A stretch of 34,295 nt of DNA from Clostridiaceae bacterium (GTDB lineage: Bacteria; Bacillota; Clostridia; Lachnospirales; Lachnospiraceae), in NCBI GenBank assembly GCA_021200535.1, contig JAJQGL010000057.1, forward strand, positions 1 through 34,295, given 5' to 3'. A program made the position numbers and the translations under genes. Under the pieces are notes generated by a model. It was not told the DNA's origin and searched no databases. It saw only the letters and a program-made list of their open reading frames with translations. Shown in pieces: positions 1 through 4,151 of this stretch (positions are counted from its first letter, which is position 1; the number at the start of each line of letters is the position of its first letter).

Positions 1-31
1 CTGGCTTCTTTTTCGTCTCTCCGGCAGGCAT
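1..31 (-). CDS. 5' end of a leftward gene, possibly small terminase (partial)
   Basis: An ATG at 31-29 on the minus strand opens a frame reading MPAGETKKKP to the window edge. A purine-rich GGAAAG lies about 11 nt upstream and could serve as ribosome site. Only ten codons are visible, so the family cannot be read. In Firmicutes phages an HNH nuclease gene is often followed by the small terminase gene, and the HNH gene here ends at 456 on the same strand, so a terminase small subunit is a guess from gene order only. The 425 bp between the two genes hold repeats and hairpins but no credible gene. Confidence 0.4.
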   Translation of the reverse strand, partial: MPAGETKKKP

Positions 32-59
32 TTTGCGATTGTCTTTCCGCGCAGAAAAA

Positions 60-78
60 TTCATATTGCGCCGAAACT
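60..78 (-). repeat. Copy 1 of a three-copy phage motif (TTTCGGCGCAATATGA)
   Basis: This 19-bp sequence is repeated exactly at 281-299, and a 15/16 match occurs in the opposite orientation at 875-890. Copy 1 ends 29 bp before the start codon of the leftmost gene. On the minus strand it lies between a TTGAAC and a TATGAA spaced 16 bp, so it may sit inside a promoter. Role as a regulator-binding site is inferred. Confidence 0.65.
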
Positions 79-174
79 ATAGTTCAACCTCTGAAAAAGT
101 TCAAAAAACACCCGAAAAACAATTCGATTTTTACAAGATTTTTTCATCCATGCTCCGCTCATCCAGAACATGCC

Positions 175-219
175 AAAGCACATGAGAATCTAACATTTTC
201 AAAGAAAATCATGTGCTTT
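175..219. other. Large inverted repeat between HNH and the next gene
   Basis: Arms AAAGCACATGA (175-185) and TCATGTGCTTT (209-219) are a perfect 11-bp inverted repeat. A second nested repeat ATTTTC/GAAAAT (195-200 and 204-209) sits in the loop. No clear T-run follows on either strand, so it is not an obvious terminator. It could be an RNA structure in the leader of the leftward gene or a DNA site. Confidence 0.55.
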
Positions 220-240
220 TGTACACCCTGGATGGTTTTT

Positions 241-264
241 CGGCCGGATTTTCACACCCGGCCG
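241..264. other. GC-rich hairpin CGGCCGG/CCGGCCG
   Basis: A perfect 7-bp inverted repeat (241-247 and 258-264) with a 10-nt loop lies between the large hairpin and copy 2 of the phage motif. No T-run follows on the minus strand. On the plus strand only a weak run follows. Function unknown. Confidence 0.4.
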
Positions 265-280
265 CCCTGATTTTTACATT

Positions 281-299
281 TTCATATTGCGCCGAAACT
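281..299 (-). repeat. Copy 2 of the three-copy phage motif
   Basis: Identical over 19 bp to 60-78 and in the same orientation, 221 bp upstream of it with respect to leftward transcription. No convincing promoter elements surround this copy. Confidence 0.65.
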
Positions 300-339
300 C
301 TGCCAGACCCCCACCCTATGAAATTCGCGGAAATTAACA

Positions 340-497
340 GAAGAGGGGGCGCCGGTCTTCGGCAGGTGCCGAACAGAGATTCGAACCCGCCCCCTGGGAC
401 AGCAGAGTACACAATCACGTGCGCGTGAAATTGTGCATCCTGCACGAATGCCGGTTCAATACCTGTATTCCGGGTTCGAGTCCTCATTGCCGGTTTT
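340..497. other. tRNA T-arm-like segments and hairpins, no intact tRNA
   Basis: GGGTTCGAATC on the minus strand (about 370-380) and GGGTTCGAGTCC on the plus strand (472-483) look like tRNA T-arms, and a weaker GGTTCAATACC lies at 453-463. Only three base pairs of each T-stem can form, and neither motif has a matching acceptor-stem half 60-90 nt away. Hairpins ACAATCACG..CGTG..ATTGT (411-434) and GTGCA/TGCAC (432-444) lie between them. The plus-strand motif overlaps the last codons of the HNH gene. Read as tRNA-like or decayed tRNA sequence rather than a functional gene. Confidence 0.35.
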
Positions 498-821
498 TAA
501 ATCGTGGTGCCGCTTACAGAGCGGCTGCCAGTTGCTTTCGTCCCAGAACAGCTTCTGGTTTCCGCGATGCGGAATCTTGTGGTCGACCACAGTTGCTTTT
601 TCGTACCTCGGCGGATTCTCCGCCATGCACATCACGCAAAGTGGATGTGCTTCGAGATACCGCTTCCGCACCCTCTGCCATTTGCTGTTATATCCCCGCT
701 TCGCGGCGGATCTGGTGTATTCCGGGTGCAGCGGCTTGTGTTTTTCACAATAACCTTTTCCGACATCCACCAATTCCGGACAGCCGGGATGCTTGCAGGG
801 AACCTTTGGTTTATATGGCAT
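456..821 (-). CDS. HNH endonuclease (phage packaging-associated type)
   Basis: A 121-residue HNH nuclease. Visible are VVDHKIPHRG (residues 78-87) with the catalytic histidine in the DH pair, an Asn at 97, and CKRHHD (102-107), which together form the beta-beta-alpha metal finger. N-terminal cysteines (C9, C14, C25) and C62/C65 suggest zinc sites. The start at 821 is chosen because AAAGGAG lies 5 nt upstream; the longer frame to 845 has no ribosome site. In HK97-type phages such small HNH proteins sit beside the terminase genes and assist DNA cleavage at packaging; that role is inferred from family knowledge and position. Its C-terminal codons overlap a tRNA T-arm-like motif. Confidence 0.85.
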   Translation of the reverse strand: MPYKPKVPCKHPGCPELVDVGKGYCEKHKPLHPEYTRSAAKRGYNSKWQRVRKRYLEAHPLCVMCMAENPPRYEKATVVDHKIPHRGNQKLFWDESNWQPLCKRHHDLKTGNEDSNPEYRY

Positions 822-874
822 AGCTACTCCTTTCATCAAAGGCATAGATAATTTTTGCCAAAAATTTCCTTTTA

Positions 875-890
875 TTTCGGCGCAAAATGA
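875..890 (+). repeat. Copy 3 of the phage motif, inverted, beside the ncRNA promoter
   Basis: TTTCGGCGCAAAATGA matches the minus-strand sequence of copies 1 and 2 at 15 of 16 positions. It ends one base before the -35 hexamer of the rightward ncRNA promoter. It also falls within the 17-bp spacer of a possible leftward promoter (TTGCAA at 897-892, TAAAAG at 874-869) for the HNH gene. Confidence 0.55.
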
Positions 891-891
891 C

Positions 892-920
892 TTGCAAATC
901 TACGTTGTTTCGCATATAGT
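892..920 (+). promoter_or_regulatory. Promoter of the rightward structured RNA
   Basis: TTGCAA (892-897), a 17-bp spacer and TATAGT (915-920) match a housekeeping promoter and predict a start near 927. TTGCAA is its own complement and could serve as a shared -35 for a divergent leftward promoter towards the HNH gene. No open reading frame with a ribosome site begins downstream, so the transcript appears non-coding. Confidence 0.7.
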
Positions 921-959
921 ATAGTCACAAGAAGAACTTCCTTCTTGACTTCGCTAAAC

Positions 960-1065
960 GATGACGAGTGACGGTTCTGACTCGTCGATAAAATAAAAAC
1001 TGACCGAGTGAAGATGATGTGTGACGGTTCTGACACATCGGTAAAATAAAAATTGACCGAGCGAA
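960..1065 (+). repeat. Two tandem 53-nt repeats with co-varying hairpins
   Basis: Unit A is 960-1012 and unit B is 1013-1065, with seven differences. Stem A is GACGAGT/ACTCGTC (963-969/980-986) and stem B is GATGTGT/ACACATC (1016-1022/1033-1039). Four of the seven differences form two exchanged base pairs (C-G to T-A and A-T to T-A), so pairing is preserved while sequence is not. The 10-nt loop and the following A-rich linker with TGACCGAG are nearly invariant. This argues for selection on a folded nucleic acid. Confidence 0.85.
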
Positions 1066-1188
1066 GGACAATCCGGCGAGGTTGGATAAAACATCCGTCC
1101 CACAGCCAGAGGTTCTACTGCGTACCCATTAAACGCTGTTTATTCAAAAACGCTTCACAATGTGCGGCAGAGAAACATTGTCCAATAA

Positions 1189-1218
1189 GTCTCCGGTCTC
1201 ACAGCCGGAGGCTTTTTT
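1189..1218 (+). terminator. Intrinsic terminator of the rightward RNA
   Basis: Stem GTCTCCGG/CCGGAGGC (1189-1196/1205-1212, one T-G pair) with loop TCTCACAG and a six-T run at 1213-1218. It is a classic plus-strand rho-independent terminator and marks the 3' end of the structured RNA. Confidence 0.85.
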
Positions 1219-1234
1219 ATAGAAATAAACTAAG

Positions 1235-1261
1235 AAAAACCGGGATGAATCATCACCTCGG
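1235..1261 (-). terminator. Terminator downstream of the antitoxin operon
   Basis: Imperfect stem between 1240-1248 and 1253-1261 (one G-T pair, one mismatch), followed on the minus strand by five T (1239-1235). It lies between the leftward toxin-antitoxin remnant and the convergent structured RNA and would insulate the two. Confidence 0.5.
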
Positions 1262-1288
1262 CTTTCTTTTTCATTTTATTCGGTTTTC

Positions 1289-1414
1289 CTAAATTCTCGC
1301 GATCAGTTCCGTTGGCGTGAAAGCCAGGACTTTACTCTTCACAAAATCTTTCACATTCATTTCCCGATTTTGAAGGACATCCAACAGAACATTCGCATCA
1401 ATCAGCAGCTTCAT
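1289..1414 (-). pseudogene. Internally deleted PIN-domain toxin
   Basis: A 41-codon frame starting MKLLIDANVLLDVLQNRE matches the first beta strand and catalytic aspartate of VapC-like PIN ribonucleases. It continues in frame into KSKVLAFTPTELIARI, which resembles the C-terminal tail of the same family. PIN toxins are usually about 130-140 residues, so roughly 95 residues carrying the other acidic residues are missing. The start overlaps the antitoxin stop by 17 bp, the usual toxin-antitoxin arrangement. The remaining peptide should be inactive as a nuclease. An in-frame internal deletion is the simplest reading, inferred without alignment. Confidence 0.75.
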
Positions 1415-1640
1415 ACTTTTCCCTGAGCCTTTCCGACTTTACCTCATCCAGGTCGTAATCCCCCTTTGAGATTTCAGGCAATGAATCGGTTAAATAGGAA
1501 ACAGCCGCTGATTTTGGAATGAGCCGTCCGACTTCGCGTCCGTTTTTTGTAACGATAACTTCCTGCCCTTCAATTACAAGATCCAGATACTTACCAAAAT
1601 TATTCTGCATTTCCGTTGCTGTTACTGTAGTACTTATCAT
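1398..1640 (-). CDS. Phd/YefM-type antitoxin
   Basis: An 80-residue protein with the Phd/YefM-type N-terminal pattern: TVTATEMQNNFGKYLDLV followed by EVIVTKNGREVGRLIP. This fold dimerises, binds operator DNA and presents a disordered C-terminal tail that neutralises the toxin; the acidic tail (DYDLDEVKSERL) fits. An AGGAGG lies 7-12 nt before the ATG. The partner PIN gene directly downstream is gutted, so this antitoxin now has no cognate toxin in cis. Autoregulation is likely: four copies of TTTTCGTCCA in two orientations lie upstream at 1727-1801. It follows metK on the same strand. Confidence 0.85.
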   Translation of the reverse strand: MISTTVTATEMQNNFGKYLDLVIEGQEVIVTKNGREVGRLIPKSAAVSYLTDSLPEISKGDYDLDEVKSERLREKYEAAD

Positions 1641-1726
1641 GATGATTGCCTCCTGGCTAATTGTAGGCTATCATAAACTAGCTAACTCTTCAACAAGCAA
1701 CTTCAATTTATTTGTGCTCTGCAGCT

Positions 1727-1801
1727 TTTTCGTCCACTCCATCTGCTTTTCGTCCAATCCATACCCGATTTTGGACGAAAAGATAGCAAGGTGGACGAAA
1801 G
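1727..1801. promoter_or_regulatory. Four-copy symmetric operator-like array
   Basis: TTTTCGTCCA occurs at 1727-1736 and 1747-1756. Its complement occurs at 1772-1781 and, with one change, at 1792-1801. Spacing within each pair is exactly 20 bp, or two helical turns. The copies form nested inverted repeats: TTTTCGTCCAA/TTGGACGAAAA inside and TTTCGTCCAC/GTGGACGAAA outside. The array lies between metK and the antitoxin start, about 90 bp upstream of the ATG. Operator for the antitoxin or another regulator is inferred; nested RNA stems are the alternative. Confidence 0.65.
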
Positions 1802-1824
1802 CATTTCTCTCCCAAATGAACCTT

Positions 1825-2901
1825 TTATTTCTCCCACGGCATCTCTGGATTCGTGAAATGCCCGTAAGCGGAAACCTGGTTGTAATCCACATCCAGAAGT
1901 CCCAGTGTCTTAATGATGCCTCGCGGTGTCAGGTCGTAATTCTCACGCACGTAAGCATAAAGGAATTCCATACTCTGGCTTTCTGTTCCGTAACAGTCAA
2001 TCGCGATACTGACCGGCTTTTCAACCCCGATGGCATACGCAAGCTGAATCTCACACTTATTCGCCCATCCGGCCAGCACGATATCCCTCGCAATCTTCCG
2101 AGCCATGTAGGCTGCGGAGCGGTCGACCTTGCTCGGGTCCTTCCCCGACATTGCGCCGCCTCCGATTCTTCCGATGCCGCCGTAGGTATCACACGCCAGC
2201 TTCCTGCCGGTCACACCACAGTCCGCAAAAGAGCCGCCTTTCACAAACCGCCCGGTTGGATTGATGAGCTTCTCAAAATCTGAATTTAACCCATAGTCGG
2301 AAGCTGCCATAATCATGAGCGTCTCCACAATGGTGCGGAAGTCACTCGGTTCCACATCCTCAGAGTGCTGCACGGAGCAAAGGAAAGTCGTGATCCTTCC
2401 GCTGTCGTAGTCGAAGCTGACCTGTGCCTTCGCATCCGCACGGAACATCCGGCTCGGATGCTGTTTTAAAAGCTTCAGGAACTTGGTCGCCACAATGTAG
2501 GGAATCGGGAGAAGCTCCGGAGTCTCATCCGTTGAATATCCGTACATGATGCCCTGGTCACCGGCTCCGCCCCTGTCCACACCAAGTGCTATATCGGAAG
2601 ACTGCTCTTTTACCAGAATACCGATATCATAAGGTGTGGCAAAAATCGGGTCATAAATAAATCCTGTCTTATCCCTGCCGATGCGATCAAACACATCGTC
2701 CACCAGCTTGCGATAATCCGGTTGGCGCTTCGAAGTCAGCTCACCTGCAATGATGATGTGGTTGTCCTTGATAAGCACTTCTATCGCCACACGACTCTCC
2801 TTGTCATGCTGCAGACAATCCGTCACAATCGCGTCCGCAATCTGATCGCAGATCTTATCACTGTGTCCATTGGACACCTGCTCACATGTGTAAATCTTCA
2901 T
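1825..2901 (-). CDS. metK: S-adenosylmethionine synthetase (phage-borne MetK)
   Basis: A 358-residue methionine adenosyltransferase making S-adenosylmethionine from ATP and methionine. Signatures are GHSDK (residues 12-16, usually GHPDK), GGAGDQGIMYGYSTDET (111-127) and GGGAMSGKDPSKVDRSAAY (247-265). At 358 residues it is shorter than the roughly 380-400 of cellular enzymes. The ATG at 2901 follows GGAGGAG; the frame extends further upstream but without a ribosome site or family similarity. Phages of Clostridia often carry metK next to DNA methyltransferases, yet none is present here; the next leftward gene is an antitoxin. It overlaps the upstream gene by 4 bp. Confidence 0.92.
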   Translation of the reverse strand: MKIYTCEQVSNGHSDKICDQIADAIVTDCLQHDKESRVAIEVLIKDNHIIIAGELTSKRQPDYRKLVDDVFDRIGRDKTGFIYDPIFATPYDIGILVKEQSSDIALGVDRGGAGDQGIMYGYSTDETPELLPIPYIVATKFLKLLKQHPSRMFRADAKAQVSFDYDSGRITTFLCSVQHSEDVEPSDFRTIVETLMIMAASDYGLNSDFEKLINPTGRFVKGGSFADCGVTGRKLACDTYGGIGRIGGGAMSGKDPSKVDRSAAYMARKIARDIVLAGWANKCEIQLAYAIGVEKPVSIAIDCYGTESQSMEFLYAYVRENYDLTPRGIIKTLGLLDVDYNQVSAYGHFTNPEMPWEK

Positions 2902-3119
2902 TCGGTCTCCTCCTGCAATCCAAAATACTCGGAATATCTTGCTTCCAAACCGCTCGCATCTGCTGGAACTTCCACCGTGCAATACAGCAGGATATTACGA
3001 ATATCATCCCCCACAGCGGACACATCCAGCAGTTCAAAACTCGGATGGGCTGCCAGCCACACATTTAAATCTCTCGCCGGACGGTGGTCTCTGCCGCCGA
3101 ACATAATCACTCGTTTCAT
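2898..3119 (-). CDS. Small phage protein of unknown function (73 aa)
   Basis: A 73-residue protein beginning MKRVIMFGGRDHRPARDL. It overlaps its upstream neighbour and metK by four bases each (ATGA), so the three are translationally coupled. GAGGAG lies upstream of the start. The N-terminus with a beta strand followed by GGRD resembles the start of small Rossmann-like or SLOG-like folds, but the protein is too short to be sure. Role unknown; coupling suggests an accessory to metK or nucleotide metabolism. Confidence 0.65.
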   Translation of the reverse strand: MKRVIMFGGRDHRPARDLNVWLAAHPSFELLDVSAVGDDIRNILLYCTVEVPADASGLEARYSEYFGLQEETE

Positions 3120-3679
3120 TCTGCCATCTCCTCCTCATAATCCCCTGCGGCAAAATCACCTTCCAGCCAGGCGATGCAGCCTTTTTCTGTAATGAAGTCC
3201 TCCACCCAAAGCTCACCGGTGCTGTTGTCTACGCCAATCCACATATCGCCGTTGCAGAAATAGAACTTTTCGCGCGGCGCATGTTCTTTCCCATTCCAGA
3301 TGATGTGTTTCCCGTGCATACATGGAACTTTGTAAATCGCAGAAGCTTTATCTACCTGGAACTTACCCTGCTTACCGTGCTCACATGTTTTACCCGTCTC
3401 ATGCCGCTGCTTCACATCTTTCTTTTCCAGAACTTCTCCGCCACAGGCAGCATATCCCGCAATGTCAACAAAATTGTCAATGGAATCTCTGGCAGCCGAC
3501 CTCGATACTTTCACAAGCACCATCATTATCGCGACATCCTTTGGTGTGAACGCTTCGTCTCGGTAATCGCTCCATAAAGCGGCGATCCTTGCAAAATTTT
3601 CGCTCGGACTGCCGTACTGTTTGTCGCGGTCTTCACAGACACATTTCAAAGCCGCATTCAAAACCTCACTTCTTTTCAT
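3116..3679 (-). CDS. DUF6378-type phage protein with extra C-terminal domain
   Basis: A 187-residue protein. The first 85 residues (RSEVLNAALKCVCEDRDKQYG, FARIAALWSDY, DVAIMMVLVKVSR, DSIDNFVDIAGYAAC) match the DUF6378 pattern seen in many Firmicutes phages, which is helical and of unknown activity. Residues about 110-187 form a second segment rich in aromatic residues (CMHGKHIIWNGKEHAP, FCNGDMWIGVDNSTGELW) that I do not recognise. GGAGG precedes the ATG at 3679. It is the first gene after the origin-like segment. Confidence 0.75.
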   Translation of the reverse strand: MKRSEVLNAALKCVCEDRDKQYGSPSENFARIAALWSDYRDEAFTPKDVAIMMVLVKVSRSAARDSIDNFVDIAGYAACGGEVLEKKDVKQRHETGKTCEHGKQGKFQVDKASAIYKVPCMHGKHIIWNGKEHAPREKFYFCNGDMWIGVDNSTGELWVEDFITEKGCIAWLEGDFAAGDYEEEMAE

Positions 3680-4151
3680 CCCATCCTCCTATCAAAACCT
3701 GTCCCATCAAAATAGATTTCAAAAAACTGCCATTGCAGCAGGTTTCCTTGTCACTTCCTGACTTCGAGGCAGTCACAATCTGACCAGGTGCAATGGCATT
3801 ACACTCCCAGACCTGTGCAGCGACAAACACACCCCCAATCTTACGCAAGGCTGCCAGCGCCATGATACGAATCCACTCGAAAGCACCCCGAAAATAGCTT
3901 TTTTCTCTTTCTGGGGATGGTTGGGGATAATTCTACTATTAAACTTAAAAAAATTTAAAATATATACATATATAGAAATAAGGTTTGAACCCTCCCCATC
4001 CATCCCCACGTTGCGGAAATAGCTCATTTTAAGGCCATAAAACCCCATCTCAGGGCGCACCAGTGCCCAAAAATCCCTCCGCTGTGAACATCTGAAACGA
4101 TCCCTGGCCACGTTTTCAAACGCCATGCGTCAAACTCAGACCTCAACCACA
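3680..4151. other. Gene-poor segment with candidate phage replication origin
   Basis: A 16-bp inverted repeat with one mismatch (3912-3927 and 3993-4008, minus-strand-readable as TGGGGATGGTTGGGGA type) brackets about 65 bp of A+T-rich DNA containing TTAAAAAAATTTAAAATATA. The segment follows directly after the primase-helicase gene. Origins of phages and plasmids with P4-type primases often lie next to that gene and combine short G-rich repeats with an easily melted tract. Two short overlapping frames (4126-3773, 3863-3666) lack good ribosome sites and family features and are not called as genes. Confidence 0.45.

Follow-up and report, generated by a model that had tools for sequence, protein, structure and literature searches.

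The analysed stretch of DNA, called the window below, is 34,295 nucleotides long and probably belongs to a prophage, as PHROG families were matched by nine of the ten window proteins tested, including an HNH nuclease, a primase, a helicase, a polymerase, a single-strand binding protein, and an exonuclease. A short RNA gene is positioned between the genes of the HNH endonuclease and a metK-like protein, the latter similar to genes annotated as S-adenosylmethionine synthetase in Streptococcus phages (Table 1). The RNA is encoded by the plus strand and the nameable genes on both of its sides by the minus strand, in agreement with the initial annotation, which had described an RNA opposed to the phage genes. 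The location that it gave, between an HNH gene and the remnant of a toxin-antitoxin system, is borne out by the match of the nuclease to phrog_144 and by a Phd-family antitoxin frame followed by a 41-residue remnant. The 41-residue frame overlaps the Phd frame and is itself matched by no Pfam or NCBIfam model. It aligns with both ends of frames of 137–139 residues from three of five loci with related phd genes; no such frame was found in the scan of the two nearest phd relatives. The label PIN, for both the long frames and the remnant, is our assumption. ARAGORN called no tRNA in the window. Two T-arm-like motifs noticed by eye at positions 366–500, GGTTCGAATC on the minus strand and GGTTCGAGTCC on the plus strand, are perhaps remnants of tRNAs.

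Table 1. Elements of the RNA gene and of the surrounding cargo slot, in order of position in the window.
Feature	Position	Strand	Evidence
Phage HNH endonuclease gene, slot border	456..845	-	phrog_144, E 1.4e-38
Cargo slot between HNH and metK genes	846..1824		Relatives with empty slot
Promoter TTGCAA-17-TATAGT	892..920	+	-10 region within the stretch common to L094; -35 box just outside
Leader hairpin CAAGAAG/CTTCTTG	928..947	+	Folding of 927-1220; also in L094
Outer clamp helix, 949-955 with 1060-1066, closes TenpI array	949..1066	+	Formable in 63 of 64 arrays
TenpI unit 1: stem 963-969/980-986, pseudoknot 972-976/1002-1006	960..1012	+	Repeats, homologues, covariation
TenpI unit 2: stem 1016-1022/1033-1039, pseudoknot 1025-1029/1055-1059	1013..1065	+	Repeats, homologues, covariation
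Relic of tenpIN terminator without its lower stem and T run	1067..1100	+	Homologous to L094 terminator
CptI-like unit 1: stem 1117-1123/1133-1139 (one mismatch), pseudoknot 1111-1113/1124-1126	1109..1148	+	Pseudoknot scan, unit alignment
CptI-like unit 2: stem 1157-1163/1175-1181, pseudoknot 1151-1153/1164-1166	1149..1183	+	Rfam, scan, unit alignment
Final terminator	1187..1219	+	Aligns with terminators behind CptI-like arrays of L162, L164, L165
41-residue frame, matches both ends of (presumed) PIN-like toxins, middle missing	1289..1414	-	Alignment
Phd-family antitoxin frame	1398..1640	-	phd_fam 42.6 bits (cut-off 20.8); PF02604 39.9 bits (cut-off 29.8)
Phage metK-like gene, slot border	1825..2910	-	phrog_1569, E 2.9e-131

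The RNA gene is confirmed, and its family can be identified. A stand-alone structured RNA had been proposed, and the promoter and terminator on which the proposal drew are both present. The folding energy of positions 927–1220 is −86.3 kcal/mol (z −3.4), and none of 200 shuffled sequences was equally stable. The terminator has an 11-bp stem and a T run (1187–1214), and folds on its own with −17.8 kcal/mol (z −6.5). Within 3 kb, eight promoter-like motifs were found where 3.3 were expected, and four terminator-like motifs, also with 3.3 expected. Promoter-like matches on their own are weak evidence, but the −10 region and the leader hairpin of the window also occur in an intact tenpIN locus, L094. 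The coding frames listed on the plus strand are only short and overlapping ones. A guide RNA of the HNH-associated HEARO/IscB kind was a further candidate and was set aside.

The first half of the RNA contains two direct repeats of 53 nt (960–1012 and 1013–1065), which are 87% identical and had been overlooked in the initial annotation. The repeats form H-type pseudoknots of the TenpI type, an antitoxin of type III toxin-antitoxin systems. A search with a TenpI repeat pattern identified 25 stretches in IMG/VR and at least 119 in bacterial genomes. Of the 119 genome loci listed, 80 have a frame encoding the toxin TenpN no more than 700 nt behind the array and 27 have none, and 12 arrays lie too near an end to be classified. 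The TenpN frames of L016 (152 bits) and L003 (162 bits) were named by the NCBIfam model NF047358, which has a cut-off of 90, and the remaining ones by a profile grown from these two toxins. The 80 loci with TenpN have two units (67 loci), one unit (12), or three units (1), and neighboring units are spaced by 51–53 nt in 89 of 91 pairs with the window copies counted, both among the matches listed.

Covariation of the TenpI units was evaluated in a set (A1) of 64 two-unit arrays, the window and 63 with a toxin, taken from 65 distinct arrays listed. L124 was omitted because its reference ran off the locus, and L049, which has several units, had been dropped earlier. In the 64 arrays, 99.5% of the hairpin and pseudoknot cells are paired, and double-sided changes occur in 11 of 24 pairs. 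The pairing signal collapses once the partners are slid. One of the five covariation measures, the occurrence of further pair types, gave no excess over shuffles (405 of 500). The pseudoknot helix itself covaries, with CUGUU/GACAG in L036, L061, and L112, and CGGCU/GGCCG in L129. Both TenpI units of the window are intact.

The closest intact locus among the matches listed is L094, from a Lachnospiraceae MAG, which is 92.8% identical to positions 907–1100 of the window over 194 nt. None of the differences between the two sequences breaks a pair of the TenpI units. In L094, the shared stretch is followed by a terminator with a T run and then by the TenpN frame. The corresponding segment of the window, between the array and the expected place of the toxin, is only the relic of a terminator, with an energy of −6.3 kcal/mol (z −0.1, 39 nt) compared to −18.9 kcal/mol (z −3.7, 47 nt) in L094, and no TenpN is found behind the array or elsewhere in the window. 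The window agrees with TenpIN systems in the sequence and 53-nt spacing of the repeats, in the H-type pseudoknot and the outer helix, and in the promoter region and the position of the terminator. However, it differs from them in the absence of the toxin, the broken terminator, and the predicted continuation of the transcript into a second class of antitoxin.

The family of the RNA had not been recognized in the initial annotation, but two classes of type III antitoxin can be recognized in tandem. An Rfam search of the window gave no match at gathering scores, and a permissive search of 850–1280 identified RF02920, named ‘Fusobacteriales-1’, at positions 1064–1181 with 45.7 bits (E 4.7e-5), below the gathering cut-off of 52.1. 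Because the first third of this match covers the tenpIN terminator relic, two CptI-like units were counted and not three. A BLAST search of phages, as had been suggested, gave one useful record (MT835481), and BLAST returned nothing from plasmids and nothing useful for the second half of the RNA. Loci of the second class were collected by RF02920 searches of the order (3 of 295 genomes) and of the phylum (2 of 398, the window’s genome being counted both times), a CptI-like pattern scan (seven viral contigs), and a toxin-profile search (3 of 195 genomes). RF02920 is over its cut-off in nine of the 14 loci scanned (L149, L150, L162, L164, L165, L166, L167, L169, and L234), among which L164 and L166 have an identical array shown. 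A CptN-like frame is present behind the array in eight of the nine (L149, L162, L164–L167, L169, and L234) and absent in L150. Therefore, RF02920, which has the Rfam type ‘Cis-reg’, looks like a family of type III antitoxins. CptI-like units with no toxin behind them are present in L163 and L168.

Three CptN-like toxins that were scanned reach 40–45 bits with the CptIN model, whose cut-off is 90, and a profile of six CptN-like toxins matches the solved CptN 4rmo (E 2.3e-9). Assignment to ToxIN proper is not favored, as the paired toxins match TenpIN and CptIN models. The CptN of the IMG/VR record 3300031867_000008 (L016) also has a weak match to Pfam ToxN (20 bits, against a cut-off of 25). 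In this record, the CptN gene (114.7 bits) is positioned directly before tenpI-tenpN, forming two type III systems in tandem.

In the CptI-like units, a 5′ strand of at least 3 nt pairs into the loop of a 7-bp hairpin. In 22 units (set A2), 99.5% of the cells are paired and double changes occur in 7 of 10 pairs; the units were chosen by pattern and by eye, and the pair counts therefore lean towards structure. Repeated units were omitted from the set (L166, the last units of L165 and L167, and the second copy of L150). A scan for the shape, covering the first 4 kb of each strand and hence the right end of the window on the minus strand, identified the two window units, and nothing else, for the plus strand of 1–4000. 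The last unit and the terminator of the window align with their counterparts in L162, L164, and L165 at 79–80% identity, and L168 is 87.7% identical to the window over 65 nt. The pseudoknot units and the terminator of the class are both present in the window, with no CptN-like frame behind the array. The window shares the pseudoknot unit of approximately 40 nt, the linker, and the terminator with CptIN-like/RF02920 systems, but has two units instead of three, a score below the RF02920 cut-off, and no toxin. One report gives the length of the classical CptI unit, from Eubacterium rectale, as 45 nt (PMC4627078).

Covariation had been named in the initial annotation as a check of the fold, and the homologue alignments show covarying pairs in both TenpI and CptI-like units. 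One of the two long-range helices proposed there, formed by 949–955 and 1060–1066, is supported by homologues: at least 6 bp can form in 63 of 64 two-repeat arrays, whereas permuted partners reach 38.7 arrays on average and 47 at most. The letters of the other helix (1066–1072 with 1177–1183) are present, but this pairing competes with the covarying stem 1157–1163/1175–1181, and the motif GGACAAT is found at the same place in L094 without the second partner. Only the first of the two helices has support from homologues. A description as four pseudoknot units suits the fold better than the closed multi-branch shape that the two helices were suggested to form.

The region from approximately 846 to 1824 is cargo, because the slot is empty in L229, L218, and L221 but filled in L162, L165, and L064. 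In L229, which is contig C97 of the window’s own genome, and in L218, the ends of the HNH and metK matches are separated by 6–9 bases, and in L221 they overlap. In the IMG/VR loci L162 and L165, a CptI-like array and its toxin are positioned between homologues of the HNH and metK genes. The same slot of L064 holds a complete tenpIN and an orphan CptI-like stretch, in which one unit is intact, one is eroded, and a clear terminator is missing. Neither kind of array was found in 47 viral loci that have HNH relatives. Beside the arrays, the slots of L064, L162, and L165 contain another conserved stretch (CGGGGTGCTGCAAAGCGTAGAATATCGCTTA in L162), which is perhaps a further small RNA; a pattern derived from the L162 element matched L162 only. 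The slot of the window holds three antitoxins and no intact toxin. It is similar to the hotspots of P2-like phages with anti-phage systems, as outlined in one report (PMC9122126), in having a fixed position between phage genes and variable cargo, but the window cargo includes an antitoxin-only form.

Toxin-less TenpI units are found elsewhere. TenpN is absent from 23 of the 25 viral records with TenpI units, which may be fragments, and many of these fragmentary records come from few phage lineages. Distinct viral orphan units have kept the stem in 12 of 12 cases and the 3′ strand of the pseudoknot in 10 of 12, neither of which is fully fixed by the search pattern. Orphan units in chromosomes are as intact as the viral ones (25 of 28 distinct units among the matches listed). 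Therefore, intactness alone does not separate selection from recent loss. In L005, L007, L010, L012, and L021, a single toxin-less TenpI unit is positioned beside or among phage tRNA genes; no tRNA genes are near the unit in the stretches of L026, L028, and L029. L007 and L012 also contain a skipping-rope RNA. In the orphan arrays of L069, L077, and L133, the pseudoknot of unit 2 differs (GAGC in the loop, GGCTC downstream), which is possibly a second specificity. The chromosomal orphans of L076, L085, and L102 are located directly before a TTAGCACTC-type repeat, which we take to be CIRCE-like and thus presumably a hint at a groESL neighborhood.

The RNA is almost certainly a chimeric, toxin-less type III antitoxin of two classes. 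This identification draws on sequence comparison, which covers both antitoxin homologies, the covariation of the pseudoknots, the missing toxins, and the cargo slot in its empty and filled forms. In this RNA, the promoter and two TenpI pseudoknots of a tenpIN system are followed by the disabled terminator of that system, which connects them to part of another type III system, consisting of two CptI-like pseudoknots and a terminator.

Type III toxins have been described to cut their own antitoxin RNA into units, which then lock them (PMC5086642). According to one study, a single CptI unit suffices, and non-cognate CptI gives no protection (PMC4627078). Phage PhiTE is reported to escape ToxIN through antitoxin-like repeats named pseudo-ToxI (PMC3475682). 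The best reading of the window RNA, which we consider probable, is that it works as a bivalent antitoxin decoy. It would be transcribed from the prophage or the incoming phage and cut into units by the cognate endoribonuclease toxin of the cell. The units may then lock TenpN or CptN-like toxins in inactive complexes, and the phage would thereby evade the type III systems with which its hosts or rival prophages impose abortive infection or addiction. Because type III antitoxins are highly selective, two classes would help. Like pseudo-ToxI, the window RNA is phage-borne, has no toxin, and resembles a type III antitoxin. Wild-type PhiTE is described as having 1.5 ToxI-like repeats, all from one family, and as needing laboratory selection; in its escape phages, repeats are expanded or acquired and ToxIN is suppressed (PMC3475682). 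In contrast, the window has complete units of two other families, which are already fused.

Possible targets of such a decoy are present among related bacteria. TenpN was detected at E 0.001 in 11 of 99 relatives, six of which exceed the cut-off; within the genus, 3 of 27 other genomes have it. The family member G319 has repeats nearly those of the window. The occurrence in the genus, together with the G319 repeats, counts for the decoy reading, as do the intact TenpI units and the viral orphans without TenpN. Points against it are the mismatch in CptI-like unit 1, the missed RF02920 cut-off, the orphans left by toxin loss elsewhere, the equal intactness of chromosomal orphans, the fragmentary viral records from few phage lineages, and the distance of the TenpN toxins of G008 and G009, which do not have this type of TenpI. 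Also counted against it, neither TenpN nor a CptN-like toxin (profile A3) was found in the window’s own genome, and no second chimera of both antitoxin classes in the loci scanned. CptN-like toxins were found in 3 of 195 genomes, one of them with a stop.

It is possible that the RNA is instead a relic without present function. The slot would once have held working tenpIN and CptI-like systems for prophage defense or addiction, whose toxins were removed by recombination and deletion. Loss of the toxin before the antitoxin is the only safe order, and antitoxin leftovers are therefore to be expected. Such remnants, judged by eye, exist in L004, L085, and L239, which makes this explanation a serious one; the partner of Phd is also gutted, CptI-like unit 1 has a mismatch, and the orphan array of L064 is eroded. 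However, the promoter, both TenpI units, CptI-like unit 2, and the final terminator are all intact in the window, the differences from L094 spare every TenpI pair, and the broken internal terminator extends the predicted transcript into the second antitoxin. In L239 (G955), an intact CptI-like unit, identical to that of the window over the pattern, was seen by eye before a CptN-like frame without a start.

A functional RNA with a role other than toxin neutralization, such as regulation of phage genes, would also fit a transcript unit that stands alone and runs against the phage operon, but it is very unlikely, considering that every element aligns with an antitoxin locus and that the slot is cargo missing from related phage contigs. 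It is likewise very unlikely that the junction near position 1100 was created by the assembler. The draft genome comprises 118 contigs and contains three HNH relatives, but the slot of C97, the related contig with HNH and metK, is empty, so that the second half cannot come from there, and the RNA is single-copy in the genome.

No paper was found under ‘Fusobacteriales-1’ or ‘RF02920’. The literature on phage-borne, orphan, or decoy antitoxins, from which subscription papers were mostly outside the coverage, yielded pseudo-ToxI and the protein inhibitor TifA, and no natural chimeric or tRNA-array type III antitoxins. The bivalent decoy fits the picture of a virus carrying antidotes against the self-destruct defenses of its hosts. 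More broadly, and with the chances in our view evenly balanced, phages of gut Firmicutes may carry antitoxin-only RNAs as a standing counter-defense, either as multi-specific fused arrays or as single TenpI pseudoknots among tRNA genes. Each of these RNAs would fit the selective type III toxins that hosts and rival prophages carry. The slot of the window, with Phd and its gutted partner, would then be an antitoxin-only island directed against three toxin families. If this is true, phages use type III antitoxins as modules from which multivalent antidotes are assembled, a function would be assigned to the family RF02920, and a rule would be available for finding anti-toxin RNAs in phage genomes, where they are invisible to protein-based annotation.
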